From Coriobacteriia bacterium (lineage in GTDB: Bacteria > Actinomycetota > Coriobacteriia > Anaerosomatales > Anaerosomataceae), in contig JAUSOQ010000030.1 of the NCBI GenBank assembly GCA_030655755.1, forward strand, positions 1 through 46,057: a stretch of 46,057 nt of DNA, read 5' to 3'. This document shows, piece after piece, positions 1 to 46,017 of the stretch. The notes under the pieces are model-generated. The model did not search any database. It was not told the origin of the DNA and was given only the letters and a program-made list of their open reading frames with translations. Both the position numbers and the translations under genes were made by a program. Positions within the stretch are counted from its first letter, which is position 1. Each line of letters starts with the position of its first letter.

Positions 1-122
1 GCCGCCCCCGCAAGGTGTTTTCGCACCGTTTGCCGCGACCAACCTGTCATCCGGGCAATCTCCCGGATCGAGTGGTGCCGTTTCATCTGTCTGATCATTT
101 CGACGTCGACCATCCCGAGCAC
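1..122 (-). CDS. istA: IS21-family transposase IstA, N-terminal fragment
   Basis: About 40 codons of an open reading frame run off the left edge. The translation begins MLGMVDVEMIRQMKRHHS and continues with IREIARMTGWSRQTVRKHL, the N-terminal helix-turn-helix of IstA transposases. I chose the GTG at 120-122 because the minus strand carries AGGAGG six bases upstream; an in-frame ATG at 113 is the alternative. The DDE catalytic domain and the partner istB lie outside the window. IstA would bind the 14-base repeats beside it and catalyse cut-and-paste transposition. Confidence 0.8.
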   Translation of the reverse strand, partial: MLGMVDVEMIRQMKRHHSIREIARMTGWSRQTVRKHLAGA

Positions 123-191
123 TGCCTTCCTCCTGCCACCGTCGACAGCGTCCCGGTTCCGGGATCACCTCGACGGTACAGGCGTTGGTGG

Positions 192-239
192 GGTGGTCAA
201 CTTTTCGGTGATCGAAAGACCTCCAGGTGGTCAACTTTT
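192..239 (-). repeat. Two terminal direct repeats of the IS21-type end
   Basis: The 14-base sequence GGTGGTCAACTTTT occurs at 192-205 and again at 226-239, 34 bases apart and in the same orientation. Multiple terminal repeats of this size are a hallmark of IS21-family ends, where they bind the IstA transposase. The inner copy lies about 70 bases upstream of the istA start. Confidence 0.8.
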
Positions 240-744
240 AGAGTACCGAACACAAACGTGAACGTGCGGACAGGCCCGGAACCACCGAAACTTGACCAAG
301 TATCCTCTGTAGGTCGGCACGCATGGCAGGCAGGGCTACTCGCATTCTGTTCACAATCGAATCCGACCGCCTGCCTAGCCGAGAGTTCGAAGTCAATTCG
401 AGTGACAACCCATCGATGCGCTCGTTGAGGACATGGCTGAACCCGCCCAATTCCTTCACCGCTGAAATCGCAATGGACCCAGAAGTGGAGCTACTACCAG
501 CTGCCGCTACCGCCCTCAGAATCTCCTCAAGCGCCCCATGTAGGACTCGTCCCTCCAAGGCTTTGACATTGGGCATGCGCGGATAGCCGATACCACCACC
601 GACATCCGTGTAATCAGCCCGTAGTAGCGCCCATGCTCGAGGGCATCTCTCAACCGCAATTAGTGTCGAGATTGTCATACGCTCAGGCGGACATGGCCAC
701 GAACTTGGACTCACGACCCGATTCTGTAGCCCACCAGCGACCAC
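238..744 (-). pseudogene. PD-(D/E)XK nuclease-like gene truncated by IS21
   Basis: The frame opens with GTG five bases past the helicase stop and carries a RecB/Cas4-like N-terminal pattern: SPSSW, then a segment ending VERCPRAWALLRADY, and later a GRVLHGALEEIL helix. In PD-(D/E)XK nucleases such segments precede the catalytic core. The frame reaches the IS21 end near position 252 and stops inside it at 238, so the expected acidic and lysine catalytic motifs are missing here. The natural gene was probably longer and continued beyond the insertion. It is the last gene of the defence operon and would have supplied nuclease activity. The family call is moderate because the catalytic half cannot be seen; truncation by the IS is directly visible. 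Confidence 0.55.
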
Positions 745-748
745 CAGC

Positions 749-3700
749 CTACCGCCCTATCGCGCAACGTACAGCGGCAGAGGCATGAGGGAGATTGACA
801 CGCGTCTCATACTCGTCCACCGGTTCTACCACCGTGGGGCTTATTCCGTACTCACTTAGGTCTCTCAGGCCCTTGTCAGCAATGTAGCCCGGCGTCAGTG
901 CGCCCGAGACGCAAACGGCGAACTCACGACCATCGGAGCCCTTACACAGGATTGGGACTGCGACCTCTCCAATGTCCGGAATCTGACGTATCTCGTTCCG
1001 CGACAGGACGAAACCTTCCATCGCATAGCCCTCAAGGTCGGCGAATAGTAGGTCACATGCCTGCTCGATGCGCTTTGTATATCGGGCAGCAAGGTGACCC
1101 GTTAGGACGTAGTTAAGGAGCGAAGCACCGAGATGCCGGTCCAACGAATCATGCTCGAACTTGTTCTTGTAGCTCCGCAGGCATCTGTAGCACGAGCTAT
1201 CGCAGTCTTCGGGACAGTTCTCGAGAATCTCGAGGGCACGCACGAAGAGACGCTCGCCAAGTCCGCCAGCCATGCGAGCGAAGCCCGCCCCACCGGAGAG
1301 AGTGTCATAGAGGTAGAGTTCCGCTTCCTGACCTCGTTCGCCCAGTTCCGTGAGCGCGGGTCGGAACTCAGCCATGAGTTCTCCCGGCTCAATCTCTAGT
1401 AGGTCGCATGCTGCTTTCCTCAGCGCCTCGCATGCGGTGCGGAGCGCAACGCGGGTGGACTGAACCCCCGGAATCAGCCGAACAGGGTCATCGAACTTCA
1501 GTGAAACCAGAAGTACGTCACTGTAGAAGTCCGTTCCGAGCACCATCCCTATGGCTGTCGCTCCACCCGGACACAACGGTTCGTCATCTGGGAATGGCTT
1601 CCGATGGGAACCGCCTGTCTGCCCGTCTGGGAGTGCCGCAGGTTCAATCCGTCCACACTTCGTGCAGTAGTTGTAGCCCTTCTGCTCGGCGCCACGATTG
1701 GTGACTACGAGCTTCTGCTGGGCGTAGTGCACACGAATGCGGTCCGTGACCGATTTCCACTTGTCGGGCTCGGGCGACGCAACCGTGAGTTTTGCGCGAG
1801 TGGGATAGCCCAATGGTGGTGAATCGCTCCGGGCAGTCGATGGTGGTTCGTCCACGGGATGTGCGAAGCCAGGTGGTCGCATCCAGTTCTGCGCAGGTCC
1901 TAGCGAATGTTGACCGCAACCCGGGCAGTCGAGAGTCTCTCCCTTCTCGGCAGAGGCGAACGGTTTGGTCATCGCGTATCCGCAGCGTTCGCACTCGAGG
2001 TAGAGCTCTCGGTCGCGCCAAGCATTGAATCGTTCCCTGGTTACCGGAGAGTAGAGCGCCCCAGACCTCCACAGCTTCCCGTCGACCCAAACGCTCTTGG
2101 CTGGCGCGTACTGTGACAGAGCGGCACTCAGGCCCTGTTGGGGAGCGTACTCATACTGGTGCAAGAACTTGGTTGAGTTTGCTTGGTCAAAGACATAGAA
2201 GGTTGCCACATCAGTGGGAAACGCATAGCGAGGGAGTACCCCCTTGTATAGCAACCGGTCCAGCAGAAACTTGCTTGACAGCTGCGAGCCCTCGGACCCG
2301 CCCGCGCTGCTGTCGCTCGAAACGCCTCCGCCCGTCTCCGCGGCTCCGCCGGAACCGACCCCAAGACCGCCTCCTCCTGGGTCAGAGGCAACGTAGCCCA
2401 CCAATGCTTCGTCGATATAGCGCAGCGTTTCCTCAACCACGCCGCCCAGGAGTTCGGTACGGGCATCCCCAGCCAGCTCATCTGGCAGCCATGCATTCAG
2501 CTCTCTTCTGAGCGCATCGCTGTGTGTGCTCAACCATACCTCCAGTCCGGCGCGGCTGAGCGAGGAACTCGGCGCTAGGAACTCCTCCACCGAGCCCAGG
2601 ACTGAGAAGAGGTTCGGTCTTGTCACAACATCCTCAGGTTTGATGGTGTCTCGCACGTACCGCTGAAGGAGGTACGCAGTCATATGCCTACGAATGATGT
2701 GGCGATTGTCCAGAACCAGCGTCGGGTCTTCAACGCTGCCGCTTATCATTTCGGCTGGTTCTGAGAAGTAGTGTTCGTCGTGACTGTCCGCACTCCCAAA
2801 CGCTGTCACTGTCGCTACAGAGTCACCCCGCCGCCCTGCTCGCCCGGCGCGCTGTTGGTAGTTGGACCGGGCGGGCGGCATATTGCGCAGCGACACACCT
2901 GACAATGCGCCGATGTCGATTCCGACCTCCATGGTCGTCGTGCAGGACAATACGTCGACGGCGCGCTCGGTGGTGCCATCGTCGGCGGACAGCTGTATGT
3001 CCTGAAACAACAGTTCGTACCGTTCGGCAAGCGAGAAGACGTCAGTTGGAGCAGCTGAGTTCAATTGCGCCGTGTGCTCCTCTGCCCTCAGACATACCGG
3101 TGGTTCGTTCTCACGTAGTGCGCGAACGGTGGCACTTCTGTAGTAGGACTTCCTCGCAAGGAACACCGCGTCGGTCTCTGGGTCGATTTCCTCAACCTCT
3201 CGCTTGCCACACTTGGTGCAGACCGCGCCGTCACCGACTAGGCGTTGGACGTTCCTGCATGCGCCGCAGTATCCCCAGCCTGTGCCGAGGTCCAGTGAGA
3301 GCTGCCTGCCCGCTGCCCGGTAGGTACCATCGAGATTGCTGCAGAACTTCTGCAGAAGCTGCGGCAGCCATTCTCTCTTGAACACAGACTGAGCCTCGGG
3401 CGTGTTTAGAACACGCAAGATGCTTCTGAAGTCACCCTTCTTGTGCCCTCCTACCGGGTCCCGACCGGACCACCACTCTTGTGGCATCGCGGACAGCCAG
3501 TATCCCTGCTTGCGCCATGCACTCAGCCACGCCCTCATCAAAGCTGTGCGGGACTCCAGCCCCTCGGTGACGCCCGGGATGTCTGGAAGCGTGCCCGGCA
3601 ATCCAGCGTGCCGACGGTGCTCCTTGACTGAAGCCAAGGCGAGGGATTCGAGCCCGTACAGCGAATCAGCAAGTGCCTCGTGAATCGAACGAATCAGGTC

Positions 3701-6274
3701 GGGGGGTGCGCTCTGACTTCCAACCTCATCCCTGAGTTCTGCAAGCAGGTCTGAGTCGTCAAAAGCACCGGCTGCCGCACCGAGGTTCACGCGCCGCATA
3801 TCGTCGGAGAAACTGGCTCCCTCGGTCATCTCAGGGTCGAGAATGACGCCAAGTCTACTGCCTGCAATAAGAACTGCGAAGTACGCATCATCAAGGGACG
3901 GGTCTAGGCTGAGCGTGTGCTGCAGCATTCTGAACCCATACACCAGAAGCGGGCGCACGGCGTCTTTGGTTGCATACCGCTGGAGATTCGGGGCAAGCCT
4001 CGCAGCTGACTGTCTGGAGTCCGAGAATATGAGAACCTTGCGACCCCGAAGAGGCGCGGCGGGGGTGGGCTTGTGCGGTCCAGGGGCTTGGACCTCGATT
4101 TGTTTGGATAATAGCGCCTGGAATGGCTCGTCGCCTTTGGTCTGGTGGTCCTGAATTCGGCTGCTACCAAACTGCTGGTCATCGCAGACCGCGCATCGAG
4201 CGAATTCGGCGGGTGAGTGCTTGGCATCCCCGGCATCGGGGCTAGCCGAGGCGCTTCGCGGAAGGTAGACCCTCCTGTGACGGTCGCCGAGGTCCTCGGG
4301 GTCGATGCGCCCCGTCACCAGGTCGTAATCCTTCAGCTGAACATCACCAGATGCAAGTGGGTGTTCGAGCAGAAGGTCCACAGCCTCGAGCCCCCGCACA
4401 ACTCCTCCACTTGAGACGAAGTCCTGCCCAGATTCACTCCAAAGATACTCAGGGTCGTTAGGGTCGTCAGTGTATGCCTTAGCGTATGCGGTCCCGCACG
4501 CCCGGCAGGTATAGAGTTCGAGCACCCTCGCGCCGCATTCGCAGAACTCTCTTGGCTGGCTGTACAACTTGCCAGCCGGACCCCCGCGGAGACCCTCAGC
4601 CAAGGCATCACAGTCGGGGTCCATGCATACCCAGAGTCCCGGAAGGCCTCGATGAAACGAGTGGACACGACAAGGCAACAGACTAGCTGCACCGGGCTTC
4701 TCGCGAGCGAGCGAGGCTAGAGCCATAAGATTGGATACCGCTACCTCGGCAACCGCGTGGGGGACTTGCGGGAAGACGAGCCCCGGAAGACTCTCCACGG
4801 ACAACGCCGTCTTCATTGTCTCGTTCACGAGCAACCCAAGGGGGCGGAAGTCACGGAGGGCTCGCATCAGCGTCTCGGAGACACTTGTGCCAGGCTTCTC
4901 ACCGCGGTACTCCAAGAATGATGACAGCAGCGCCATGCGCGCCTCATCCGTGTCAGCTTGATAGAACTCGGCGATGTCAACTGTCGCAAGTGCTTCCGCG
5001 TCTTCGGGACCACCCACGGCAGCGGTACGGCGGAGCAGCTCGCCACTCAACACCGCGAAGGTCCCAGCGTCCAATCCTGTGAGCTGTGATGCGAACCTCT
5101 TGGCGTTGACCACGTCCTCGAAGCTAGCGCTGGTGCAAATCGCCTGAACCCGGTCCGCTCCAATCCCGAGGCGCATACGAAGTCGCCTGAGGAGTAGAGC
5201 TACTTCAGAACCGCCTGCGCCGCGATACAGATGCGCTTCATCCACAACAAGCAGCAGCTTCTCGTCTGGATGTTCTTTGAGCCAACGGGCCGTCTGGTCG
5301 AATATTGGCGCCTCAATTGGACGCATGAGCATGTACTCCAACATGGAGTAGTTGGTCACAAGAACATCCGGCGGTGATGCCAGTACCTCGTGTCGAGTGA
5401 GCAACTCAACGTCATCTGGCTGGGTCACCGCTCTTAGAAACTCACCCGTACGCCGGTCCTGCCACGAAGTGTTGTCGCGACCATACCAGGCACGGAGGTC
5501 CGGCTTCGCAGGCCATTTTCCCCGCCGGGAGAGCTCTTCGAACAACTTTGTCGCCTCAGCGGAAATCGCAGGGTCGTTCGACTTCATCAGTTCAAGTTGT
5601 TCGATATAGAACTTCTTGATGGAGCTCAGACGTTGCTGGTCTTTGTCCTTGTCTCGCACTCCCGCATATGGTGTCCTACTTGTATATCTGGCAAATCGTG
5701 CGGGTCTGCCGCCATGACGTCCAAAGAAGCCCGTGACACGCGAATCACCAAGCAGCAACCTCAAACGACCAACTTGGTCGTTCACCAATGCGTTCATCGG
5801 ATAGAGGAGAATCACCCGCGTCGCAGAGGATTTGAATGAGTCAGGACGCTTCGCTGCCTCGCTCGCAAGTTTGGCAACGAGAGGCAAGAGGAACGACTCC
5901 GTCTTGCCCGAGCCCGTACCCGTAGTGATGACCAGATTTCGTCCCTCAACATGCGCCAGCTTCAAGGCTTCCGCTTGATGCTGATACGGCGGGTTGTAGA
6001 AGACCTGGCTGGCGCTCTTTGGGGAAGCCAGTGCCTCTAGGAGTTCCAATGCGTCTTCGTCGAGTCCGAGTTCGCCGAACCGGGCACCGATAACGTACCT
6101 TGGGGTGCTCTCCACAAACGGTAGTTGATGGATGACGCCGGGAACGCCCAGGAGCTGCTTGCGCTGCTCGACGAGCTTTGCGTCGCGTATGTGGTAGGCA
6201 GCCTCTATGTACTCGGTCAGGCGCTGCTGCAGCGCGCCAACAGTCTGCCCGAGTGTCAGCACTTGCGATTCCAC
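749..6274 (-). CDS. druE-like: Giant DEAH-box helicase with DUF1998 domain (DruE-like)
   Basis: This is an 1841-residue superfamily 2 helicase. Motif I (TTGTGSGKTES) is at 117-127, the DEAH box at 345-348, a SDSRQSAARLAP segment near 751, motif V (CTTTMEVGIDIG) near 1111-1122 and motif VI (QQRAGRAGRRG) at 1140-1150. Several paired-cysteine clusters, near 550-593, 1003-1023 and in the C-terminal third, suggest zinc ribbons. The C-terminus has the DUF1998 signature CPEDCDSSCYRCLRSYKNKF. A Gly/Ser-rich stretch lies between the helicase core and the C-terminal region. Size and domain order match DruE of Druantia anti-phage systems; DrmA of DISARM is a shorter relative. The GTG start overlaps the preceding stop (TAGTG) and follows GGAGG, so it is translationally coupled. 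I infer ATP-driven movement on foreign DNA. Confidence 0.85.
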   Translation of the reverse strand: MESQVLTLGQTVGALQQRLTEYIEAAYHIRDAKLVEQRKQLLGVPGVIHQLPFVESTPRYVIGARFGELGLDEDALELLEALASPKSASQVFYNPPYQHQAEALKLAHVEGRNLVITTGTGSGKTESFLLPLVAKLASEAAKRPDSFKSSATRVILLYPMNALVNDQVGRLRLLLGDSRVTGFFGRHGGRPARFARYTSRTPYAGVRDKDKDQQRLSSIKKFYIEQLELMKSNDPAISAEATKLFEELSRRGKWPAKPDLRAWYGRDNTSWQDRRTGEFLRAVTQPDDVELLTRHEVLASPPDVLVTNYSMLEYMLMRPIEAPIFDQTARWLKEHPDEKLLLVVDEAHLYRGAGGSEVALLLRRLRMRLGIGADRVQAICTSASFEDVVNAKRFASQLTGLDAGTFAVLSGELLRRTAAVGGPEDAEALATVDIAEFYQADTDEARMALLSSFLEYRGEKPGTSVSETLMRALRDFRPLGLLVNETMKTALSVESLPGLVFPQVPHAVAEVAVSNLMALASLAREKPGAASLLPCRVHSFHRGLPGLWVCMDPDCDALAEGLRGGPAGKLYSQPREFCECGARVLELYTCRACGTAYAKAYTDDPNDPEYLWSESGQDFVSSGGVVRGLEAVDLLLEHPLASGDVQLKDYDLVTGRIDPEDLGDRHRRVYLPRSASASPDAGDAKHSPAEFARCAVCDDQQFGSSRIQDHQTKGDEPFQALLSKQIEVQAPGPHKPTPAAPLRGRKVLIFSDSRQSAARLAPNLQRYATKDAVRPLLVYGFRMLQHTLSLDPSLDDAYFAVLIAGSRLGVILDPEMTEGASFSDDMRRVNLGAAAGAFDDSDLLAELRDEVGSQSAPPDLIRSIHEALADSLYGLESLALASVKEHRRHAGLPGTLPDIPGVTEGLESRTALMRAWLSAWRKQGYWLSAMPQEWWSGRDPVGGHKKGDFRSILRVLNTPEAQSVFKREWLPQLLQKFCSNLDGTYRAAGRQLSLDLGTGWGYCGACRNVQRLVGDGAVCTKCGKREVEEIDPETDAVFLARKSYYRSATVRALRENEPPVCLRAEEHTAQLNSAAPTDVFSLAERYELLFQDIQLSADDGTTERAVDVLSCTTTMEVGIDIGALSGVSLRNMPPARSNYQQRAGRAGRRGDSVATVTAFGSADSHDEHYFSEPAEMISGSVEDPTLVLDNRHIIRRHMTAYLLQRYVRDTIKPEDVVTRPNLFSVLGSVEEFLAPSSSLSRAGLEVWLSTHSDALRRELNAWLPDELAGDARTELLGGVVEETLRYIDEALVGYVASDPGGGGLGVGSGGAAETGGGVSSDSSAGGSEGSQLSSKFLLDRLLYKGVLPRYAFPTDVATFYVFDQANSTKFLHQYEYAPQQGLSAALSQYAPAKSVWVDGKLWRSGALYSPVTRERFNAWRDRELYLECERCGYAMTKPFASAEKGETLDCPGCGQHSLGPAQNWMRPPGFAHPVDEPPSTARSDSPPLGYPTRAKLTVASPEPDKWKSVTDRIRVHYAQQKLVVTNRGAEQKGYNYCTKCGRIEPAALPDGQTGGSHRKPFPDDEPLCPGGATAIGMVLGTDFYSDVLLVSLKFDDPVRLIPGVQSTRVALRTACEALRKAACDLLEIEPGELMAEFRPALTELGERGQEAELYLYDTLSGGAGFARMAGGLGERLFVRALEILENCPEDCDSSCYRCLRSYKNKFEHDSLDRHLGASLLNYVLTGHLAARYTKRIEQACDLLFADLEGYAMEGFVLSRNEIRQIPDIGEVAVPILCKGSDGREFAVCVSGALTPGYIADKGLRDLSEYGISPTVVEPVDEYETRVNLPHASAAVRCAIGR

Positions 6275-7353
6275 TAAGCCTCCATACGTTCGCGGGCAAT
6301 GCCCTTGTCTACCTGCTGAAGCCAGAGCGCGTCCTCACAAAAGGAAGCCTCTTCAGTTGCATCGCACTGTGCGAACTCATAGCTGAGCAACGCCCCATGC
6401 ACGTCCACTGGGTCGCCCAGGTTATCCCATCGCCGCTGCACCCATTGCGGAACGGGCGAGAATAGGGACAGACACTGGGTATCTCTCCCCTCGATTGCCC
6501 TCACAGAGAATTGCTGCGGATACCCGCGCCCTTTGTCTATTGCCAGCTGAAGCCGCCAGGCCCGGTCGCACGCCCTCTCCGGACCTTCGCCCATCAAGTC
6601 AATCAGTTGTACTACCTCACCTGCCTCGACACGCGCATAGCCCCAGAGGTCGCTTCCGTACCGGCGTGAGCGCCTAACAAGGTATCGACCAGCGTCACGG
6701 ACCGACTCACGCCATCGTCCGGGATAGAAGTCAACTGGGCACCTTGAGTCCAGGAAGCGAACACCCGCGAGGTCCCGGGTATCCGGCGCTGCATCCAGCA
6801 ACAAATCATACTGCTCCACCAGGGCTTCAGGGCCTAGTTGCTGCGGACGCCATCCCCATGCATCCGCAGGAATCTCGATGAGGTCGTTGTCCCGAAGGCG
6901 CGAAGCTACGCCTTCACCCGAGAGCCGTCGAGTGTGGGCCTTGTGCACCACCTTGGTCTGAAGCTCCAGTGGCAGTGGCAGCTGGTCCAACTCGCCCAGC
7001 CCCAACAGGAGCACGTCTCCGCCATCTCGGCACACGAACGACGGCGGTCGCGCATACACATGAGTCACGCGGTCACCGGAGTCAGCCGAGCGCGTCTCAG
7101 CCTCAATCAGGTCGCCGTACGACAGCATTGCCTCCAGGGTGGTCTTCAGGCGGTCTCGGTCAACCGATACGCCCAGTCCGACAAGCGAACTCTGCACCTC
7201 ATCGAGCAGCGTGCGCCTCTTGCATGGGCACCGGAACCCGCCAGCCACGCGAATCAAGGCGGATAGTGCTTCGGTGGAGTCGAGCGAATAGCCGGGCAAA
7301 CAGAGTGCCTCTGCGGTTGACGCGCCCGCAGCGATTCTCGTCAATAGCTCCAC
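6274..7353 (-). CDS. Unrecognised defence-operon protein between helicase and 1002-aa protein
   Basis: I do not recognise this roughly 360-residue soluble protein. It has no signal peptide, membrane helix or obvious nuclease motif. The N-terminal 120 residues are helical with winged-helix-like character (LLDEVQSSLVGLGV followed by TLEAMLSYGDLIE), and the C-terminal half is rich in Trp and Arg (YPGRWRESVRDAGRYLVRR; YGSDLWGYARVE). Frames at TTG 7368 and GTG 7362 are also open, but GTG 7353 has GGGAG eight bases upstream, so it is preferred. The gene ends inside the helicase start (TAGTG overlap), so the two products are probably made in fixed ratio. Its position suggests a DruD-like accessory or adaptor role, which is inference only. 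Confidence 0.65.
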   Translation of the reverse strand: MELLTRIAAGASTAEALCLPGYSLDSTEALSALIRVAGGFRCPCKRRTLLDEVQSSLVGLGVSVDRDRLKTTLEAMLSYGDLIEAETRSADSGDRVTHVYARPPSFVCRDGGDVLLLGLGELDQLPLPLELQTKVVHKAHTRRLSGEGVASRLRDNDLIEIPADAWGWRPQQLGPEALVEQYDLLLDAAPDTRDLAGVRFLDSRCPVDFYPGRWRESVRDAGRYLVRRSRRYGSDLWGYARVEAGEVVQLIDLMGEGPERACDRAWRLQLAIDKGRGYPQQFSVRAIEGRDTQCLSLFSPVPQWVQRRWDNLGDPVDVHGALLSYEFAQCDATEEASFCEDALWLQQVDKGIARERMEA

Positions 7354-7355
7354 AA

Positions 7356-10300
7356 CTACCACTCCCAATCCGTGCGAGGCTGACCGTCGCCAAACCGTTC
7401 AGCTACAGCATCCGTCGCAAGAACCAACCACCGCGCAGCCCTGAGATGCATGGGCGACTCGAGCAGGTCAGTCAAGAGTGACTCAAGCCTATCGCCCGCC
7501 CAAGCACCAACTGTCTGTGGCGAGCTCGCGAATCGCAATGCGAACTCCATTCGCTCCATCAACTGCGCTTTTGGAATCGCCGTTGGGGAGAAGGCTAGCG
7601 CCTGGCTAATGAGGGACGTAAGCCGCTCACAACGCTCTCGCGGTACGCCTCTCGCCAACGTCCCGTCCACCTTCAGCACTCCCACAAGTGGACGGTCGTG
7701 TTGAGTCGTGGCAACCGCCTCCGTAAGAGCATCCCAGCTGCTAGCGGAGCGCTGTCTTTGGTAGTGCTGCTCCGCGTGCATCCAATTGGAGCCTACGATT
7801 ATCTCAACCAGTTTGTACTCAAACGATGCGAGCACACGCCACATCGGGTACTGGGCAGCCAACTGCCCGGGTATTCGCGCACTGTGCCAGCTAGCTGCGT
7901 GACCGAGAAGCCCCATCACATCCCGTGCGCTTCGGTTGTGGTAGCTGAGAGATGGTCTGCAGTTAAGGTCCTGCAGGTTGTGCGCCTGGAGCGGCACAAT
8001 TGCACTACACATGAAACCGTCAACCCGTGCCACATAGAGTCCGCCCTCGGGTTCGAGACATCGGGAGTTTTGCAGAGGAGCAGAATCAACGCCCACCGCC
8101 ACGTCCGGCTTGTCGAACGAATACCAAACGACCGCGGGCAGCTCAAGCCGACCTGTGTCATCGCGCAGTTCAAGACAGTAGTCCTTCGAGTCTCTGGACA
8201 GCACCCAGCGCAACGGCGTCTGTTCGCGCTCCATCCGGAATTCACGAGCGCCAAGCTCCCTGCCATCTACGGCAAGGAGGCACGAATCGGCTTCGTCGTA
8301 ACGGTTCTGTACTCCCGAGTTATCGATGAAGTGTCGCTCGACGTGCTCTCGCCAAGCAGCGGTATCGACGGGCAAGTGAACTGACGGCAGTGTTCGCTCA
8401 ATGAGCGCTGACGACACACCATCTCGAAACAACGCTGCTTTCACTCGCACCAGGTGCCCCTCAGGTCCGTCTAGGTCAAGACTGAACCGCCCATCCCAGA
8501 ACTCCTCGAGGCTTGGACTTCGAGGGCTGGGAGTGATGACAAGTGGCAGTGCGCGCTGTGATGTCCCAGTGGTGGGCTCACGCACAACAACCCGCAGCCG
8601 CCCGGCTTGCACGCTGGTCCCACAAGTTAGACTGAGTTCGAAATTGTGTTCACCCACCTCTATCGGCTCGAGATTGATGAAGGCAGGCCGACCAGACACT
8701 AGCGGCACTCTCAGCGGCTCGGTCCCAAAACGAGCGTTGCGAAGCTCCAGCACTCCGTCAGCGCAGTCCGCCGTGACAGCCACGAGTTTCGGCTGCAGAG
8801 TGACCCACTCGACATTCCCCTCACCGTCCCATTCTGCTGCAGGCATTCCCACGGGCCATACTCGGAGCGTTGTCGCCTGCGTCAGGGCTAGTCGCTCGCA
8901 AAGGGTGTCCAGTTCATCCGATTCGAGCGCATCTGGCCACAGGCGTGCCACCCGTGCACCCCCGAACTCCGCCGACTCATCGAGAAGGGGGAGTCCGACC
9001 AGGCTGCCCTCTTCACCCACAACAAGGTATTCGGCGCCACCGCGAATCGTTCGGCCCTTGACCAGACGAGCGTCGCCGTCGTCACGCAGCCTGAACAGCC
9101 ATGTGGAGGAGTCGCCAATGCTGAGCTTGGAGCCAAGAAGGGCTTCGGCGGCTGAACCTGAGTCCTCGAACTGCACGAGCGGGGTACTAGGTTCGGGCCA
9201 TCGTGCGAACTCTATGTCTGGCATTGCGAACATGAGAGCACCTGCCGCCCAAGGCTTCGTACGCCTACCTGACGGGATTCTGAATCGGGACTCCAAGAGC
9301 GTTCGGCGAACCTCATCCGGAAGCATAGGCGCTGCGGACGACATATCCGGAAGCCTCAGCCACCCTTGCCACGAGCCGTCGGACCCCAGTCGCAGTGTAA
9401 GAGTTGGCTCGAGTCCAAGCTGGGTGAGAAGCGCGGAGGAGTCCCTCGTGCCAGCGCCTTGACGCCCAACTTCACCATGCCCGAGTCCGTGCATCGCGAT
9501 AGTCCGCCGCGCACGGGCACGCGCCCGGTCGAGAAGGTCCTTGGCATGTCGGCGTCGCTCGAGGTCACCCACGATTCTCTGGAGCGTCGCATGTTCCAGC
9601 ACCTCGAACTCCAGAGACTCGCCCTGGAGGAGCAACGCCGATGCGATGAGACCGACGAGTTCCGTGTTCTTGATGAACTGCCTGAAGCGGGCACCCGCAT
9701 CGGAACTCACCGACTCAATTGCGGCACCCAGCAGTGCAGGATTTCGCAGTAGGGCCGAGGTGTAGCGGCTCTGAAGCCGACCTAGACTAATGACGAACTG
9801 GTTCTGCAAGTCCTGAGGAAGAACCGAATGGGTGATTGGCCAACAGATGATGCTGAACTGGTTCGCCCAAGCTCCGGACGGTTCGACCCCTCCGAACTCC
9901 CGAGTAAACCGTTTGAACTGCTGGCGAATCCAGTCGCGGCTGTCGTTGCCATCCCGCCACCTAGGAGTCCGCTTCTGGAAGATTGGCCAGTACTCCAAGC
10001 CAACGTAGTCATAGCCAATCTCGGTGGCATGAACTACCCAAGCCAGCCAATGCCGCCGCTGCGGCTGCCCGAATGAGAGAGATGACAGCAACGCTTGTTC
10101 GACATCATTTCGCTCAGACGGCGACAACCCATGCTCGAAGGCGAACACGCACTTGGACAGCCCTGTAGACTCCGACCGCTTCTTCGCAAGAGCGGTGAAG
10201 CGGCCCTCCAGTTCCCGTTGTATGTTGTCGAGTTCGCTTATCTTGTGCCCCCCTGGCCCCGGCAGATGGTTACCTATCAACCGACGAAACTGGCAACTGC

Positions 10301-10364
10301 CCCAGCAGCCCAGCGCAGACTGATTCGGGGTCGAAATCTCGATAGGATTCATCCCTCGCCGCAC
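7356..10364 (-). CDS. Large defence protein, YjiT/STY4851-like (DruH-like possible)
   Basis: This 1002-residue protein sits between the DruA-like and helicase genes. The N-terminal third has a conserved-looking block (YDYVGLEYWPIFQKRTPRW, then WANQFSIICWPITHSVLP) that resembles the large YjiT/STY4851-type proteins found beside DUF1998 helicases; that resemblance is from memory and moderate. The middle third looks like all-beta, Ig-like modules (about 510-740), and the C-terminus is helical. No catalytic motif is evident. The ATG at 10364 lies inside the preceding gene, a 95-base overlap; ATG 10352 is an alternative and no clear ribosome site decides. In this operon position it could replace DruB/DruC, acting as scaffold or target-binding subunit. 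Confidence 0.65.
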   Translation of the reverse strand: MRRGMNPIEISTPNQSALGCWGSCQFRRLIGNHLPGPGGHKISELDNIQRELEGRFTALAKKRSESTGLSKCVFAFEHGLSPSERNDVEQALLSSLSFGQPQRRHWLAWVVHATEIGYDYVGLEYWPIFQKRTPRWRDGNDSRDWIRQQFKRFTREFGGVEPSGAWANQFSIICWPITHSVLPQDLQNQFVISLGRLQSRYTSALLRNPALLGAAIESVSSDAGARFRQFIKNTELVGLIASALLLQGESLEFEVLEHATLQRIVGDLERRRHAKDLLDRARARARRTIAMHGLGHGEVGRQGAGTRDSSALLTQLGLEPTLTLRLGSDGSWQGWLRLPDMSSAAPMLPDEVRRTLLESRFRIPSGRRTKPWAAGALMFAMPDIEFARWPEPSTPLVQFEDSGSAAEALLGSKLSIGDSSTWLFRLRDDGDARLVKGRTIRGGAEYLVVGEEGSLVGLPLLDESAEFGGARVARLWPDALESDELDTLCERLALTQATTLRVWPVGMPAAEWDGEGNVEWVTLQPKLVAVTADCADGVLELRNARFGTEPLRVPLVSGRPAFINLEPIEVGEHNFELSLTCGTSVQAGRLRVVVREPTTGTSQRALPLVITPSPRSPSLEEFWDGRFSLDLDGPEGHLVRVKAALFRDGVSSALIERTLPSVHLPVDTAAWREHVERHFIDNSGVQNRYDEADSCLLAVDGRELGAREFRMEREQTPLRWVLSRDSKDYCLELRDDTGRLELPAVVWYSFDKPDVAVGVDSAPLQNSRCLEPEGGLYVARVDGFMCSAIVPLQAHNLQDLNCRPSLSYHNRSARDVMGLLGHAASWHSARIPGQLAAQYPMWRVLASFEYKLVEIIVGSNWMHAEQHYQRQRSASSWDALTEAVATTQHDRPLVGVLKVDGTLARGVPRERCERLTSLISQALAFSPTAIPKAQLMERMEFALRFASSPQTVGAWAGDRLESLLTDLLESPMHLRAARWLVLATDAVAERFGDGQPRTDWEW

Positions 10365-11457
10365 GCGGAATAACCCAGCGGTTCAAACAGCTCTTCGATA
10401 TCGCATCAGCGGACCAGTCATAGTGCTCTGCCAGGGTCGTCTGCCCAAGCAGAATGTCACGCCAGTTCTTGGCAAGTGGCGCCACATAGACCTCGCGGGA
10501 TACTCCATGATTGAGGAGTGCCCGCTCGTCCATTCCAATCTCGCGAAGCGCGGCCCTGGCGACTCGCAGACGCCAATTGGGCCCGTCGCCAAACCTATTC
10601 CCGCTCGCGTACGGGTGCTCGATTTCGGAGAGGTACTGGCGCATCAATCCAAACACCTCCGACGAGAACTGGAAGTGCCCATAGCCTTTCGTGGAGCCAA
10701 TCCTGTCGAACCTGGGACCGTCCGGCAGACGAAGTCGGTTATAGAGCGAAGACCGACCAAGGGCAGATGTCGTCGTCAACAGCACAAGAGGCGCCTTGCG
10801 ACTGACCTGCCGGATGACGGAAGTACGCTCTCCGTACTTGCGGTCATATGCAGTTCGAACCTCGTTCGACGCAGCCAGAGATGCGACCAGCTTCCCGCCT
10901 ATCAAGCCGGAATAGGGAGGCACAGCGCCCATCACATAGGCATCCATCACATGCACGAGGCGCTCTCGCCTGTCCTCAACATCCCAGCCGACCCATTTGT
11001 CTCGACTTGAGAGATTGAACACTGGGTCGCCGATGGCGAAGAGCCCGATTAGGGCCTCGTGTTCAGCATCCCACACCAAGTAGCGAAGACGACGACCGAA
11101 CCCTCGCGACACGGGCACCGACCAAAGCTTGGTCGCAAGCCGGAACAGCTCCGATTCGCGTGTGCCTGGCTTCACTTCTATGAGAATCGGCCGAATCTTC
11201 TCAGGCACAAGGTCACGACCAGAAGCTAGCGCTGAACGAAGGTCCCCGATGTGTGCTCGAATGAAGGTCGCTTCGGCGGCAATGCGCTCGGCTCTAGCGC
11301 CCGCATGCATTCCCCGAACAGCTTCCTTTGAGAGCGCGGATGCAAGAGTGTCAGAGACCTCAGGAGCGTTGGCATCCACCCCGATAGAAATCAGGTGAGC
11401 CGATATCGCCTCTCTGAGCTTCTCCCCCGCCTCATCCACCGCGTCAACGCCCCTCAT
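10270..11457 (-). CDS. druA-like: DruA-like DUF4338 protein
   Basis: The product is about 395 residues from ATG 11457, which has GGGAG eight bases upstream. Its core matches the DUF4338 family that defines DruA of Druantia systems: a central LRYLVWD segment, an IGLFAIGDPVFNL strand, SSRDKWVGWD, a VPPYSGLIGGKLVASLA block and, near the end, LVLLTTTSALGRSSLYNRL followed by GSTKGYGHFQF. An in-frame GTG at 11580 has an even stronger site (GGGGAGG, spacing six) and would add 41 residues that look non-conserved. This is the first gene of the defence operon. Its biochemical role in the family is not settled; it is needed in type I Druantia. The combination with a DUF1998 helicase four genes on is the main reason for the Druantia call. 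Confidence 0.75.
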   Translation of the reverse strand: MRGVDAVDEAGEKLREAISAHLISIGVDANAPEVSDTLASALSKEAVRGMHAGARAERIAAEATFIRAHIGDLRSALASGRDLVPEKIRPILIEVKPGTRESELFRLATKLWSVPVSRGFGRRLRYLVWDAEHEALIGLFAIGDPVFNLSSRDKWVGWDVEDRRERLVHVMDAYVMGAVPPYSGLIGGKLVASLAASNEVRTAYDRKYGERTSVIRQVSRKAPLVLLTTTSALGRSSLYNRLRLPDGPRFDRIGSTKGYGHFQFSSEVFGLMRQYLSEIEHPYASGNRFGDGPNWRLRVARAALREIGMDERALLNHGVSREVYVAPLAKNWRDILLGQTTLAEHYDWSADAISKSCLNRWVIPRAARDESYRDFDPESVCAGLLGQLPVSSVDR

Positions 11458-11648
11458 GTGATGAACTCCCGGACGACTCTTGCAGCATACAAGAACCCTG
11501 CGGCGTCCGGTGGACACAGCCGACAACCCTAGGTAACGAACCTGCCCGCGCAGTCCGGCGCCGTACACACTAGCTGACACGTAGGACCTCCCCATGTATC
11601 ACTACATAGGAAATGCTACGCCCTCGGTCTGACATGCCGCGATTCCGC

Positions 11649-12242
11649 TCACTCTGGAGTATCGGCATCCCGGGTATCTCGAGCCTCACGTGCCCCACCG
11701 TGGCCCACGTCGGGACAGTCGGCGAAGAGTGCCGCGACCTCCTCGGGCGAAGGGCGAACCGCGTCAAGAAACGCCTGAATTCCCTTCTGGGCGTCGCCAC
11801 GACCGCCATTCACTTTGAACTCGTACGCCTCTCGCTCCATGCGAACGCCCTCAACGATGAGTAGCCGAAGCTCCCGAATACTCTCGTCAGTCAGGTCCCT
11901 TCGCTCTAAAGCTGCAAGCGCACGCTCTTGAATGAGCCGCGCATGCCTTGCCCACCGCTCAGAGGCGTCGCTAATAGCCCGCTCGTGCGCCGCTCTCAAC
12001 AGGGAATCGCAGTGACCGTCATACGCCGTCACGCGGTCAACCCAGGAATGTTGAGACGACCAGCGTTTCCACTGAGACGGTATGGGGCTGGTGCCTCCTT
12101 GGTGTCTCTCAAGGCAAGCGTCCCTGTGGCTCTTGAAGGCAGCTTCAATCGAACGAGTGGACGGACTGAGGTCGCGATAGTGAGCAAAGGCATGAAACGC
12201 CTTCGCAGATTCATCGCCTTTCTGCTCCCAAGGCTCAATCAC
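11649..12242 (-). CDS. Phage-type HTH protein, terminase-small-subunit-like
   Basis: The protein is about 197 residues from GTG 12242, which follows GGGAG by seven bases. The N-terminus carries a pattern often seen in phage and integrative-element proteins: WEQKGDESAKAFHAFAHYRDL, then an SIEAAF helix and QWKRWSSQHSWVDRVTAYDG. In relatives this is a helix-turn-helix that binds DNA, sometimes annotated as terminase small subunit. The rest is a charged helical region ending in an acidic tail. It lies between the control cassette and the defence operon. No large terminase or capsid gene is seen, so a packaging role is unlikely here; DNA binding or element regulation is more plausible. Confidence 0.55.
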   Translation of the reverse strand: MIEPWEQKGDESAKAFHAFAHYRDLSPSTRSIEAAFKSHRDACLERHQGGTSPIPSQWKRWSSQHSWVDRVTAYDGHCDSLLRAAHERAISDASERWARHARLIQERALAALERRDLTDESIRELRLLIVEGVRMEREAYEFKVNGGRGDAQKGIQAFLDAVRPSPEEVAALFADCPDVGHGGAREARDTRDADTPE

Positions 12243-12358
12243 TTCGTCTCTCCCTCTCGCGCAGCCTGTCCGCAGGCTGGTCACAGGCTGTCTGCTGCTC
12301 CCTGGATGGTTGACTGAATGAATAGATGAATGAGTGAAGTTCCTTATGGAGATTCGCC

Positions 12359-12865
12359 CTAGTCTTTGAATAGCTCATCTGGATTCCTGAATCCCCCCAG
12401 CCGAGTGCCCACACTTGGCTCACTCTTGGGAATCACCGCAGCCTGACCGAGGGCTGCGGGTGTCTTTGCCCAGTGGTAGGTGCCACTTTCGTAGCGATTC
12501 TTCGATTCATGCGGGACGAAACCGATGCCTGGCGGCAAGGGAACCTCTCTTGGCGCATTCCATCGCGTCAGCGAACGATTCCAGACCGGGAAGTCAGGCA
12601 GGAAACCACACTGCACTCCTTCAGCCTCGTAGCCCCACACGAATCCTTCGTCCTCAAGCTGCCGAAGGTACTCTGCAACTTCGGCGTCTGTGATGTCCGC
12701 CTCCAATGGCACCGCTGCCTTGCGCACTGCTCGCGGATTGGCAACGAAGCAGCCGCTGTCTTCAGCGAGGTGATGCAACGCGATGTACACCGCCCGCTTC
12801 TCAAGAGGGCGAAGGTCCGAGTCGAAGGCAACGGCAGGGTCAATCATCCGCTTCGTCGGATTCAT
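12359..12865 (-). CDS. Winged-helix replication-type protein of integrative elements
   Basis: This 168-residue protein has an N-terminal winged-helix-like fold: FDSDLRPLEKRAVYIALHHL, a short VANPRAVRKAAVPL helix and DAEVAEYLRQLEDEGFVWGYE, followed by GFLPDFPVWNRSLTRWNAPREVPLP. That layout resembles phage and plasmid replisome-organiser-like proteins that act at an element's own origin. The family is recognised by pattern only. Its ATG overlaps the stop of the upstream excisionase-like gene (ATGA at 12862-12865), so the two are co-translated. Confidence 0.5.
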   Translation of the reverse strand: MNPTKRMIDPAVAFDSDLRPLEKRAVYIALHHLAEDSGCFVANPRAVRKAAVPLEADITDAEVAEYLRQLEDEGFVWGYEAEGVQCGFLPDFPVWNRSLTRWNAPREVPLPPGIGFVPHESKNRYESGTYHWAKTPAALGQAAVIPKSEPSVGTRLGGFRNPDELFKD

Positions 12866-13053
12866 CGCTCGCCCTCAAGCCAGCGTTCCAGGGATTGGCG
12901 ACCAACCAGCACCCGTCTACCTAAACGCACTGAGGGCAGCTCCTCCCGTCGTATCGCTCCGTACACGCTGTTCTCTGCAACCCCGAGGAACACAGCCACC
13001 TGACGAACCGTGAGCACGTCCGGCAGCTCCGCAAGTGACGTTGCCCTACTCAT
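12862..13053 (-). CDS. Excisionase-like helix-turn-helix protein
   Basis: The 63-residue product from ATG 13053 has the compact MerR/excisionase-type fold: DVLTVRQVAVFLGVAENSVYGAIRR, then LPSVRLGRRVLVGRQSLERWL. Such proteins bind attachment-site arms and steer a tyrosine recombinase toward excision, or act as small transcription factors. It overlaps the XRE gene by eight bases upstream and the winged-helix gene by four bases downstream, forming a three-gene coupled cassette opposite the integrase unit. An excisionase role fits the neighbouring integrase but is inferred. Confidence 0.7.
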   Translation of the reverse strand: MSRATSLAELPDVLTVRQVAVFLGVAENSVYGAIRREELPSVRLGRRVLVGRQSLERWLEGER

Positions 13054-13258
13054 CGCACAACACCTCCTCCAGCAGCTCGTCGGAATGGTCCGTCGGGACG
13101 CCAAGGGCATTGGCGAGTTTGCTCATCTGCGACGGATAAGGCTTCCCGATATACCCCTTTTCAATCTGACCGACAGTCGTCGGATGCATCTCGGCAAGTC
13201 GGCTAAGGGCAGCAAGGCTCAGACCCCTCGCACGTCGCAGCTTCTCAATCTTGCGCAT
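13046..13258 (-). CDS. XRE-family transcriptional regulator
   Basis: This is a 70-residue Cro/C1-type helix-turn-helix protein: IEKLRRARGLSLAALSRLAEM followed by HPTTVGQIEKGYIGKPYPSQ and a short C-terminal helix. The start at ATG 13258 is supported by GGAGG seven bases upstream; a longer open frame upstream shows no family similarity. It is transcribed away from the zinc-ribbon/integrase pair and shares a 98-base intergenic space with it. The likely role is immunity-type repressor of the island, autoregulating its own operon and perhaps the integrase unit. Confidence 0.8.
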   Translation of the reverse strand: MRKIEKLRRARGLSLAALSRLAEMHPTTVGQIEKGYIGKPYPSQMSKLANALGVPTDHSDELLEEVLCDE

Positions 13259-13356
13259 ATTTGCGCCTCCAAATCTCTCGCTGTTGCGGCATATGCCTTG
13301 GTCAGTGTAGGATGCATTAGGACATACGCAAAGCCTCTGAAAGGACACATGTTCGT
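13259..13356. promoter_or_regulatory. Divergent control region between XRE repressor and integrase unit
   Basis: This 98-base gap separates two divergently read units, so both promoters should lie here. It contains a short symmetric GGCATATGCC at 13291-13300 that could be an operator half or whole site for the XRE protein. No consensus promoter boxes are clear enough to place with confidence. Confidence 0.4.
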
Positions 13357-14187
13357 ATGACGGTCTATCCTCTCCAAGTCGAACCAACGAGAGTCCTGCC
13401 TGAACTTCCAGTGATGCTGCCCGGAACACTTGCGGTGGATGAGAGCGGTGCTATTCGCGGCGTCGCTCGCCTTACGGTCGTCGCTAAAGGAGATGGACTC
13501 GCCTCGGGTAGCCACACAACCCTGCTCCCACCGGAGCTGTATCTAAGGCAGCTCCTTGACTTCGACGTGGCGTCAGACGATGCCCTGCTCGACTTCATGG
13601 GGAACTTCGGTCTTCTGGGAAGCGGCTCTCTGGATGGCAAGTCGTCAGGCGCCTACGAAACCCCCGTCAGCACAATGCGCAGTGCGAGGGAACGTGCGGC
13701 GGTGCTGAGGGACACGAGTCGGACCCTCCTCGCCAATGAGGGAATGCTGGAACCTGACGAGCTGTTCGCTCTGTGGGAGTCACGCGGAGGAAATCCCCTC
13801 GCGAGCGTCATCTTCCAGAACGACCCTCTGGAGGTTGCGGTCAAGCTGGCGACTGGCGTCGTTACCAACGCCCTCGCCCCTTTCGGTCCGAGGGTGAGCA
13901 CGCCCGGAAGCAGCAAACACGAGGTCTTCGGCATTCCGTTGGAATCAGCCGTCTGCGCACAGATGTTCAACCATATTGCCGAGGGTGCGGCATACCGTCG
14001 CTGTGCATTGCCCTCATGCTCCCGCGCATTTGTCCGTCAGGTCGGTCGCGCCGTGAAGGGGCAATTCAAGCTTGAGGGTGTCGAGTACTGTTCGCCCCAG
14101 TGCGCCAGAGCAGCAGCAAGCAAGAGGTACCGGGACCGCAAGCGCGATGAACGGCTACGCACCGCGAGTGAGAGGGACTCCGAATGA
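13357..14187 (+). CDS. Zinc-ribbon (CGNR-like) protein coupled to the integrase
   Basis: The protein has 276 residues. The C-terminal 70 contain a four-cysteine zinc ribbon, RRCALPSCSRAF followed by VEYCSPQCARAAASKRYRDRKR, which is like the CGNR zinc fingers of actinobacterial regulators. The first 200 residues have no recognised domain but resemble the variable sensor part of such proteins. Its stop overlaps the integrase start (ATGA, 14184-14187), a linkage that implies a partner role in integration or control of excision. An ATG eight bases upstream opens only a three-codon frame. Confidence 0.6.
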   Translation: MTVYPLQVEPTRVLPELPVMLPGTLAVDESGAIRGVARLTVVAKGDGLASGSHTTLLPPELYLRQLLDFDVASDDALLDFMGNFGLLGSGSLDGKSSGAYETPVSTMRSARERAAVLRDTSRTLLANEGMLEPDELFALWESRGGNPLASVIFQNDPLEVAVKLATGVVTNALAPFGPRVSTPGSSKHEVFGIPLESAVCAQMFNHIAEGAAYRRCALPSCSRAFVRQVGRAVKGQFKLEGVEYCSPQCARAAASKRYRDRKRDERLRTASERDSE

Positions 14188-15401
14188 AAGGAACACTTCG
14201 CAGAAAGACGGCTGAGACCTGGCAGCTTCGAGTCTTCCGAGGCTACGACGAGCACGGCAAACAGCTCTGCGACTACCACACCATCCACGCCAAGACCAAA
14301 CGTGAGGCTGAAGCGGAGCAACGTCGCATCCTACATTCACTGGACACGGGCGGGTACGCCGAACCTTCTCGCCTCACGGTTGGCGACTATCTGGAATCGT
14401 GGCTTCGCGACTACGCAGCAAACAATGTCTCTCCGTACACTCTCGACCGGTACGAGAGCATTGTGCGGAAGCATCTGATTCCGGCACTCGGGTCGGTCAG
14501 AATGAACCAGCTCACTCCGGTCCGCATTGAACGCTACTACGCGACCGCTCTGGAATCTGGACGACTCACACGCACTCGGAAGAGACCAGAAGACGGCAGT
14601 AGGACTTCCCCGCCACGCGGTCTGGACCCGCAGACAGTGGTCAAGCACCATCGAGTACTTCGCACGGCACTGAAACGAGCTGTGAGGCTTGGTCTGCTCG
14701 TTGCCAACCCATGTGACCGCGTCGACCCTCCAAAGCTCCCTCGCACTGAGATGAAGGCGCTTGATGAGTTTGATACTGAGAGACTCCTTGCGGCGGCTCG
14801 TGCCTCGAACTGTCCCAGCCTGCATGTCGCCGTCTTACTGGCAGCGAACACAGGTATGCGGCGCGGGGAAGTGCTGGGGTTGAGATGGTCTGATTTGGAT
14901 TTTGATGCTGGAGTCCTTCACGTGCGGCGCACACTTCAGCGCTCCAAGAACTCGGTGGTCTTCGGTGAGCCGAAGTCCGCCTCAAGCCGCAGAATGCTCT
15001 CGTTAGACGAAGAGACTCTTTCGGAGCTGAAATCTCACAAAGTCAGGCAGAGTCGAACGCGACTCGCCCTGGGCACAGGATGGCAGGACAACGACCTAGT
15101 GTGTCCGGGTCGCTGTGGTGAGCCGTGGCACCCCAACATGCTCACTCGTGAGTTTCAGAGACTGAGAGACCGGAATGGATTGTCTCTGCGATTCCACGAC
15201 CTGCGCCACAGTCACGCCGCGCAGCTCATCAGAACGGGCGCGCCTGCGAAGGTCATTCAGGAGCGACTGGGGCACGCCTCGGCAGGATTCACGCTAACCA
15301 CCTATGGGCACTTATTGCCAGGGATACAAGATGAGGCGGTCGAGCGCCTAGCCATCGCCCGCGCCGATGCGCGTGAGAGACTCGCGGCACTCGCGAAGTA
15401 G
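14184..15401 (+). CDS. int: Tyrosine recombinase (phage/ICE integrase)
   Basis: This 405-residue integrase has an N-terminal arm-binding region (1-60), a SAM-like core-binding domain (about 65-185) and a catalytic domain with the full set of active residues: R226 in TGMRRGE, H338 and R341 in HDLRHSHA, H364 in RLGHAS and nucleophile Y374 in TYGHL. It is complete. Its ATG overlaps the zinc-ribbon gene stop. The gene lies about 1.1 kb from the 3' end of tRNA-Glu, the usual arrangement for an island inserted in a tRNA gene, so this enzyme probably mobilised the whole left part of the window. Confidence 0.92.
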   Translation: MKGTLRRKTAETWQLRVFRGYDEHGKQLCDYHTIHAKTKREAEAEQRRILHSLDTGGYAEPSRLTVGDYLESWLRDYAANNVSPYTLDRYESIVRKHLIPALGSVRMNQLTPVRIERYYATALESGRLTRTRKRPEDGSRTSPPRGLDPQTVVKHHRVLRTALKRAVRLGLLVANPCDRVDPPKLPRTEMKALDEFDTERLLAAARASNCPSLHVAVLLAANTGMRRGEVLGLRWSDLDFDAGVLHVRRTLQRSKNSVVFGEPKSASSRRMLSLDEETLSELKSHKVRQSRTRLALGTGWQDNDLVCPGRCGEPWHPNMLTREFQRLRDRNGLSLRFHDLRHSHAAQLIRTGAPAKVIQERLGHASAGFTLTTYGHLLPGIQDEAVERLAIARADARERLAALAK

Positions 15402-16497: not shown

Positions 16498-16573
16498 TGG
16501 TGCCCCCAAGGGAATTCGAATCCCTGTTGCCGCCTTGAAAGGGCGGAGTCCTTGGCCTCTAGACGATGGGGGC
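16498..16573 (-). tRNA. tRNA-Glu (anticodon TTC)
   Basis: The minus strand folds as a normal tRNA: acceptor GCCCCCA pairs with TGGGGGC, followed by discriminator A and encoded CCA. The anticodon stem CCGCC/GGCGG encloses loop CTTTCAA, giving anticodon TTC for glutamate. The T arm contains GGGATTCGAATCCC. Its 3' end faces the island. Confidence 0.95.
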
Positions 16574-45920: not shown

Positions 45921-46017
45921 GGAGGCGAATGGGTCCTGGTGGGCTCCGCGGTCTTCAAAACCGTTGTGGGGGGTGAAGAGCCTCCTGGGTGTGTTCGATT
46001 CGCACGCGCCTCCGCCA
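45921..46017 (+). tRNA. selC: Selenocysteine tRNA (anticodon TCA)
   Basis: The 97-base sequence has features unique to tRNA-Sec: a long acceptor branch (GGAGGCG with CGCCTCC, plus a mismatch at the eighth pair), an extended D arm, an anticodon arm GCGGT/ACCGT around loop CTTCAAA giving TCA (45955-45957), a long variable arm (GGGGGGTGAAGAGCCTCCT region) and a T arm GTGTGTTCGATTCGCAC, then GCCA. The length and the loop are as in E. coli SelC. It shows the organism decodes UGA as selenocysteine. selA and selB were not found in the window and are likely nearby. Confidence 0.93.

Follow-up and report, generated by a model that had tools for sequence, protein, structure and literature searches.

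A type I-like Druantia variant that lacks DruB and DruC and ends in a truncated nuclease gene

The operon described here, encoded on the minus strand of a 46,057-nucleotide stretch of Coriobacteriia DNA (the window, meaning that whole stretch), is a type I-like variant of Druantia that is widespread and sparsely described. DruA, DruD and DruE are present, a single unrelated protein of about 950-1000 residues (here called mid) stands where DruB and DruC would be expected, and the operon closes with a RecB-like nuclease gene whose catalytic half a transposon has removed. On balance, the evidence leans toward an explanation in which mid would serve as sensor or scaffold, DruE as motor and the nuclease encoded in the slot after druE as cutter, the last of these having been lost in this copy.

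Gene content of the operon

Five tightly packed ORFs extend on the minus strand from 11595 down to 238:

10270-11595, minus strand: DruA, short form, 441 aa (PF14236/DUF4338); PADLOC PDLC00002 3.5e-136, Pfam DruA 1.6e-82, 45% identity to E. coli DruA
7356-10364, minus strand: mid protein, an ORF of 1002 aa; homologues begin at about residue 44
6274-7368, minus strand: DruD, 364 aa; PADLOC PDLC00010 9.1e-83, profile comparison with E. coli/P. putida DruD 84%, 7e-6
749-6274, minus strand: DruE1, a YprA-like DEAH helicase, 1841 aa; PADLOC PDLC00013 E=0, 1854 bits
254-744, minus strand: N-terminal ~164 residues of a nuclease, within a terminal ORF of 168 aa (238-744); profile 3.6e-50, alignment A6

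Neighboring frames overlap by 95 bases (DruA/mid), 13 bases (mid/DruD) and 1 base (DruD/DruE), and a 4-base gap separates druE from the last ORF. The five overlapping same-strand genes of a first-pass annotation are thus present, except that the last pair is separated rather than overlapping, and its DruA-like (DUF4338) first gene and DruE-like helicase are both borne out by the model matches listed above. The operon start that it placed at 11457 moves to 11595, where the longest DruA ORF begins. What it had left as an unknown of about 360 residues is DruD, so its statement that the two middle genes do not resemble DruB, DruC or DruD holds for mid and fails for the second gene, a plain DruD.

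Druantia type I is reportedly the E. coli DruABCDE system of Doron et al. 2018. The references used for it were E. coli MB1, annotated druABCDE, and P. putida pKF715A; DruB and DruC of both, as well as E. coli DruD, match PADLOC models, which indicates that these models work. The order DruA ... DruD-DruE is common to the window and E. coli. DruE is 33% identical to its E. coli counterpart and has its best match in the type I model, with a PDLC00013 score far exceeding those of the type II-IV models, whereas DruD is only remotely homologous to E. coli DruD and is linked to it by profile alone. In place of E. coli DruB (548 aa) and DruC (627 aa), the window contains the one mid protein, and it adds the RecB-like nuclease slot after DruE. 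The DruB model PDLC00005, which recovers E. coli DruB at 3.4e-270, has no match anywhere in the genome, and the DruC model PDLC00006, which recovers E. coli DruC with E=0, has none among the operon proteins. Because these two defining features are absent, the operon is not counted as type I in the strict sense. PADLOC likewise gave no match among the operon proteins for DruH or for DruM, DruF, DruG and DruL of types II and IV.

Conservation over 82 sequences indicates that the helicase motifs of DruE1 are intact and that its C-terminal domain carries no conserved catalytic residues, in agreement with the inactivated Vsr domain of type I DruE (Bell et al., PMC12458937). Type III DruE, in contrast to that of the window, has C-terminal PLD nucleases (PMC12458937). 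DISARM, Dpd and ARMADA share the YprA-helicase family with the operon, which differs from them in having no methyltransferase, DrmB, Dpd base-modification or BrxHII-like gene.

Recurrence of the operon and the nuclease slot after druE

A search of 84,980 species genomes with an alignment of four DruEs returned at least 564 relatives, and the best 80 were kept, a sample biased to DruEs that resemble that of the window. Within these best 80 of at least 564, DruD is found in 74 loci, and mid in 72 of the 73 loci having at least 4 kb of upstream sequence. Judged by record titles, the hosts include Actinomycetota, Pseudomonadota, Acidobacteriota, Gemmatimonadota, Planctomycetota, Chloroflexota and Bacteroidota, among others. 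The full same-strand order of short DruA, mid, DruD, DruE and nuclease recurs in five other loci (L021, L022, L023, L030 and L032), and so is not confined to the window. Accordingly, the first-pass label of a new subtype is right in that the gene set is not the textbook one and the order recurs, and goes too far in that this is a variant of type I and not a new kind of system. The textbook DruB-DruC arrangement was seen in E. coli and P. putida. In DNA searches against E. coli, druE of P. putida matched 69 of 5426 genomes and druE of Nitrosococcus watsonii had no match.

DruA occurs in two forms: a short one (~400 aa), usually upstream in the same orientation, like that of the window, and a long one (~660 aa), which is paired with a HATPase gene and often lies downstream in convergent orientation. 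At about 35 loci, L017 and L018 among them, the long form with a GHKL/HATPase protein (MzaB-like) replaces short DruA. The PADLOC DruA and DruD models reach 916 and 334 bits on mid-type loci, which must therefore have been partly known before, although mid itself is without a model; defense-finding tools built around DruB and DruC could overlook or mislabel such loci. The literature searched, which included few subscription journals, contained no description of the variant or of the slot and no experiment on any mid-type system.

The slot directly after druE was scored in the 77 loci uncut by a contig edge, again among the best 80 of at least 564. It contains a RecB-like gene in 25, a NERD-helicase module (a fusion of a NERD-like nuclease with a P-loop helicase-like domain) in 16, DUF4365 with PDC-M02B in 7, all of them Streptomyces, and no recognized nuclease in the remaining 29, suggesting that the slot is optional or is filled from elsewhere. 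In the NERD-like N-termini D57, E99 and K101 are conserved in 8 of 8 aligned members, with a weak Pfam NERD match (0.018). Mapped on a DruE tree, the slot type switches 17 times, as opposed to a mean of 40 after shuffling, a comparison in which the duplicates L017=L097 and L018=L078 slightly favor clustering; slot content is thus mostly inherited and sometimes exchanged. The Streptomyces loci (L039 15707-17463 and six others) also show that the PADLOC candidate system PDC-M02A/B, a pair consisting of DUF4365 and an unknown protein, is linked to Druantia, since the pair lies directly after druE. A swappable slot behind a seemingly nuclease-dead DruE offers a testable source for the cutting activity, and we infer that the slot nuclease acts in trans as an effector.

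The ORF that occupies this slot in the window has a weak Pfam match to PDDEXK_1 (0.12), and its match to the RecB-like nuclease profile covers positions 12-161 of 409. Full-length relatives of 405 and 412 aa, homologous to the fragment, follow druE in two actinobacterial genomes and match PDDEXK_1 at 1e-20 to 1e-24, as well as DruK and Cas4 models. The likeness of intact relatives to PADLOC DruK (1e-10 to 1e-13) falls over the catalytic region but is weak and partial and is shared with Cas4 models, and the window copy breaks off ahead of the catalytic region. An alignment of 24 relatives and the window copy (A6) has a RecB/Cas4-like layout, consisting of a first Cys, GR-D, D-(F/Y)-K-T-G, Gln and a C-x2-C-x5-C cluster, and the family retains both the Cys cluster and the GR-D / D-(F/Y)-K-T-G / Q motifs. 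The window copy ends after about residue 164 of ~410, ahead of every catalytic motif. Thus, the terminal PD-(D/E)XK-like gene of the first-pass annotation is correct as to family, but what remains is the N-terminal part of the gene and not a working nuclease. A profile search for the missing half found no second fragment elsewhere in the assembly, and the terminal fragment had no match in plasmids.

The cause of the truncation is an insertion-element end that lies inside the gene:

1-254, boundary ambiguous by a base: insertion-element end at the contig edge, repeated near-identically at C16:3846-4099; HTH_28 1.3e-6

Window positions 1-254 agree with C16:4099-3846 at all but one base, whereupon the two differ sharply from base 255, the window contig and C16 break off at the same base, as at a repeat, and the last codons of the terminal ORF, with its stop at 238, fall inside the repeated segment. 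On the minus strand the element end starts TGTGTTCGG, and it carries two GTGGTCAACTTTT repeats. A transposase-like HTH ORF, of which 37 residues are present, starts at 113 and reads out of the contig, matching general HTH models only. The element is suspected to be IS21-like. In a separate case, an IS3 element interrupts the helicase gene of a mid-type Druantia on Sinorhizobium medicae pMl4 (L009), and the gene is rearranged, giving another transposon-inactivated copy.

How much the truncation matters depends on what the slot does. It could be that DruA, mid, DruD and DruE form a complete four-gene system to which the nuclease is a neighbor or accessory, so that its truncation would be irrelevant, as the Nitrosococcus watsonii pNWAT01 locus and 21 short-DruA loci without a recognized slot nuclease would suggest. 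However, in 25 loci from several phyla the RecB-like gene begins no more than a few bases from the druE stop or overlaps it, other PD-(D/E)XK-type modules occupy the position in 23, and the nuclease domain of DruE itself looks dead, which together leave this alternative rather unlikely though well worth keeping in view. A remnant already in decay, no longer functional since a transposon struck its 3′ gene, would likewise explain the element end inside the nuclease gene and a catalytic half found nowhere in the assembly; this too is unlikely, and slightly more so, given that none of the other four genes is shortened and the helicase motifs are intact, from which it follows that any decay is recent. 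Under the preferred explanation, that of a system relying on a slot nuclease, the window copy would be weakened or inactive because its catalytic half is gone, unless a host nuclease substitutes. A further-reaching proposal, that these loci form a separate Druantia subtype of many phyla with a convergent sensor unrelated to DruH, a nuclease-dead DruE and an interchangeable trans-acting slot (RecB-like, NERD-helicase or DUF4365), is offered tentatively, as plausible but somewhat short of probable.

Mobile-element setting

Upstream of the operon are several genes of mobile-element character, followed by a tRNA gene:

11649-12284, minus strand: terminase small subunit-like, mobile-element context; phrog_6299 6e-11
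12359-12865, minus strand: replication initiation-like, mobile-element context; phrog_1408 2.6e-8
13046-13429, minus strand: Cro/C1-type repressor-like HTH protein; Pfam HTH_3 9.6e-11
14184-15401, plus strand: tyrosine integrase; Pfam 5e-27, phrog_1 5.9e-77
16498-16573, minus strand: tRNA-Glu, probable integration site, 3′ end facing the integrase; ARAGORN

The integrase probably belongs to the element that carries the operon, and the genes at 11649-15401 look like those of a phage-satellite-like element at tRNA-Glu with Druantia as cargo; the far end of the element is outside the window. This setting bears on whether the operon is a defense system at all. YprA/MrfA relatives function in DNA repair (PMC12458937) and the operon adjoins phage-like genes and an integrase, as would be expected of a repair or maintenance module of the mobile element, but DruE groups with Druantia models and the patchy presence of the operon, with mid found in 1 of 69 genomes of the order to which the window belongs, fits defense cargo, making such a module very improbable. 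Anti-phage activity is predicted for this type I-like Druantia.

The 25-base 3′ end of the tRNA-Glu (16499-16523) has 11 more copies in the genome, one of them with one mismatch, against 0 for a backward control. The copies, which are dispersed attachment-like sites or cassettes, lie on contigs C12, C16, C22, C42, C53, C78, C79 and C80 (L117-L124). Non-tRNA copies have a stretch of ~45 bases upstream composed of iterated GTACCAACGAGTCCCAATAGTCAC-like units, often with ATAAAACCGCAGGTCAG downstream, and are found near housekeeping genes, several of them also near AbiEi/AbiEii or nucleotidyltransferase toxin-antitoxin genes. At L123 4400-7489, 3.1 kb between two tRNA-Glu-type repeats enclose an AbiEi-AbiEii pair, in the manner of a small cassette. 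A selenocysteine tRNA occupies positions 45921-46017, at the window's right end.

The mid protein and its possible role

The true start of mid is probably downstream of 10364, because its N-terminal ~40 residues run over the end of druA, are predicted with a pLDDT below 50 and lack a counterpart in most homologues. No PADLOC model matches the protein at E<=1, Pfam and NCBIfam give no meaningful match, and by sequence the PDB yielded a chance match only. Its description as YjiT-like in the first-pass annotation is unsupported: blastp gave nothing meaningful, and the profile of its 77-sequence family scores 0.9% probability against YjiT. K-12 YjiT is itself a DruH fragment (blastp 3e-20), and mid is neither, the family profile giving 0.2% against DruH. 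That mid is a fused and strongly diverged DruB-DruC, which would make the operon plain type I, is suggested by its position exactly between DruA and DruD, as for DruB/DruC in E. coli and P. putida, but is most improbable and disfavored at the sequence level, given profile probabilities of at most 0.5% for DruB, DruC or a fusion (DruB 0.3%, DruC 0.1%) and the absence from mid of both the CoiA-like N-terminal domain of E. coli DruB and the coiled-coil SMC-like matches of P. putida DruC.

An AlphaFold2 model built from 69 sequences (pLDDT 85.9, pTM 0.56) predicts helices at 39-316, an alpha/beta region at 320-495, beta-sandwiches from 497 to ~790, predicted as tandem Ig-like domains, and helices at 797-990. 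The sole fold matches are of residues 497-602 to Ig-like domains, at a modest Z of 8-9, and such folds are common. Viral structures yielded only weak beta-sandwich and tail-protein matches. The N-terminal domain, the most conserved part of mid, reaches pLDDT 90.6 when predicted alone and has no Foldseek match at E<=0.001 and nothing by VIA-align beyond Z 5.4, which does not imply a new fold.

The predicted helical-alpha/beta-Ig-like-helical layout resembles the published description of DruH of type III, in which helical ends surround alpha/beta domains with Ig-like elements (PMC13192584); the DruH structure, 9tud, is absent from the structure matches. In type III (DruH-DruE), a YprA-like DruE stands beside a protein of ~1000-1100 aa with Ig-like domains and helical ends, a pairing that the predicted fold of mid would parallel in the window, but mid has no sequence similarity to DruH and the window has DruA and DruD. 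DruH is the proposed infection sensor of type III, whose DruE loads on ssDNA (PMC13192584). By analogy, mid is proposed to be a functional counterpart of DruH, a sensor or scaffold.

On the favored reading, one mid protein replaces DruB and DruC in a system that rides on an integrated phage-satellite-like element. DruE would load on DNA wherever single strands are exposed and then travel along it, mid, with Ig-like domains between helical ends, would sense infection or provide a scaffold and so license DruE, as proposed for DruH, and DruA and DruD would be partners. Since the C-terminal nuclease domain of DruE looks dead, cutting would fall to a separate PD-(D/E)XK enzyme, the product of the gene that directly follows druE. 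The retrieved literature assigns no roles to DruA-D, and type I is to that extent poorly understood; a variant with DruA, DruD and DruE and without DruB and DruC tells core from exchangeable parts.

Two further loci concern relatives of these proteins. A 988-aa protein of Rhizobium ruizarguesonis pTA1_2 (L010 11986-17879) is clearly similar to the mid family (E 1e-25) and shares the N-terminal domain of mid. Its gene directly precedes that for a 975-aa SNF2-type helicase (DpdE/BrxHI/DrmD-like) and adjoins UvrD, DUF1998 and NERD genes, and proteins like mid may also work with other helicase systems. In E. coli K-12 (L016 4415-8856), the DruH fragment YjiT neighbors yjiV, a pseudogene with DruE similarity, and yjiT-yjiV is a decayed Druantia type III.
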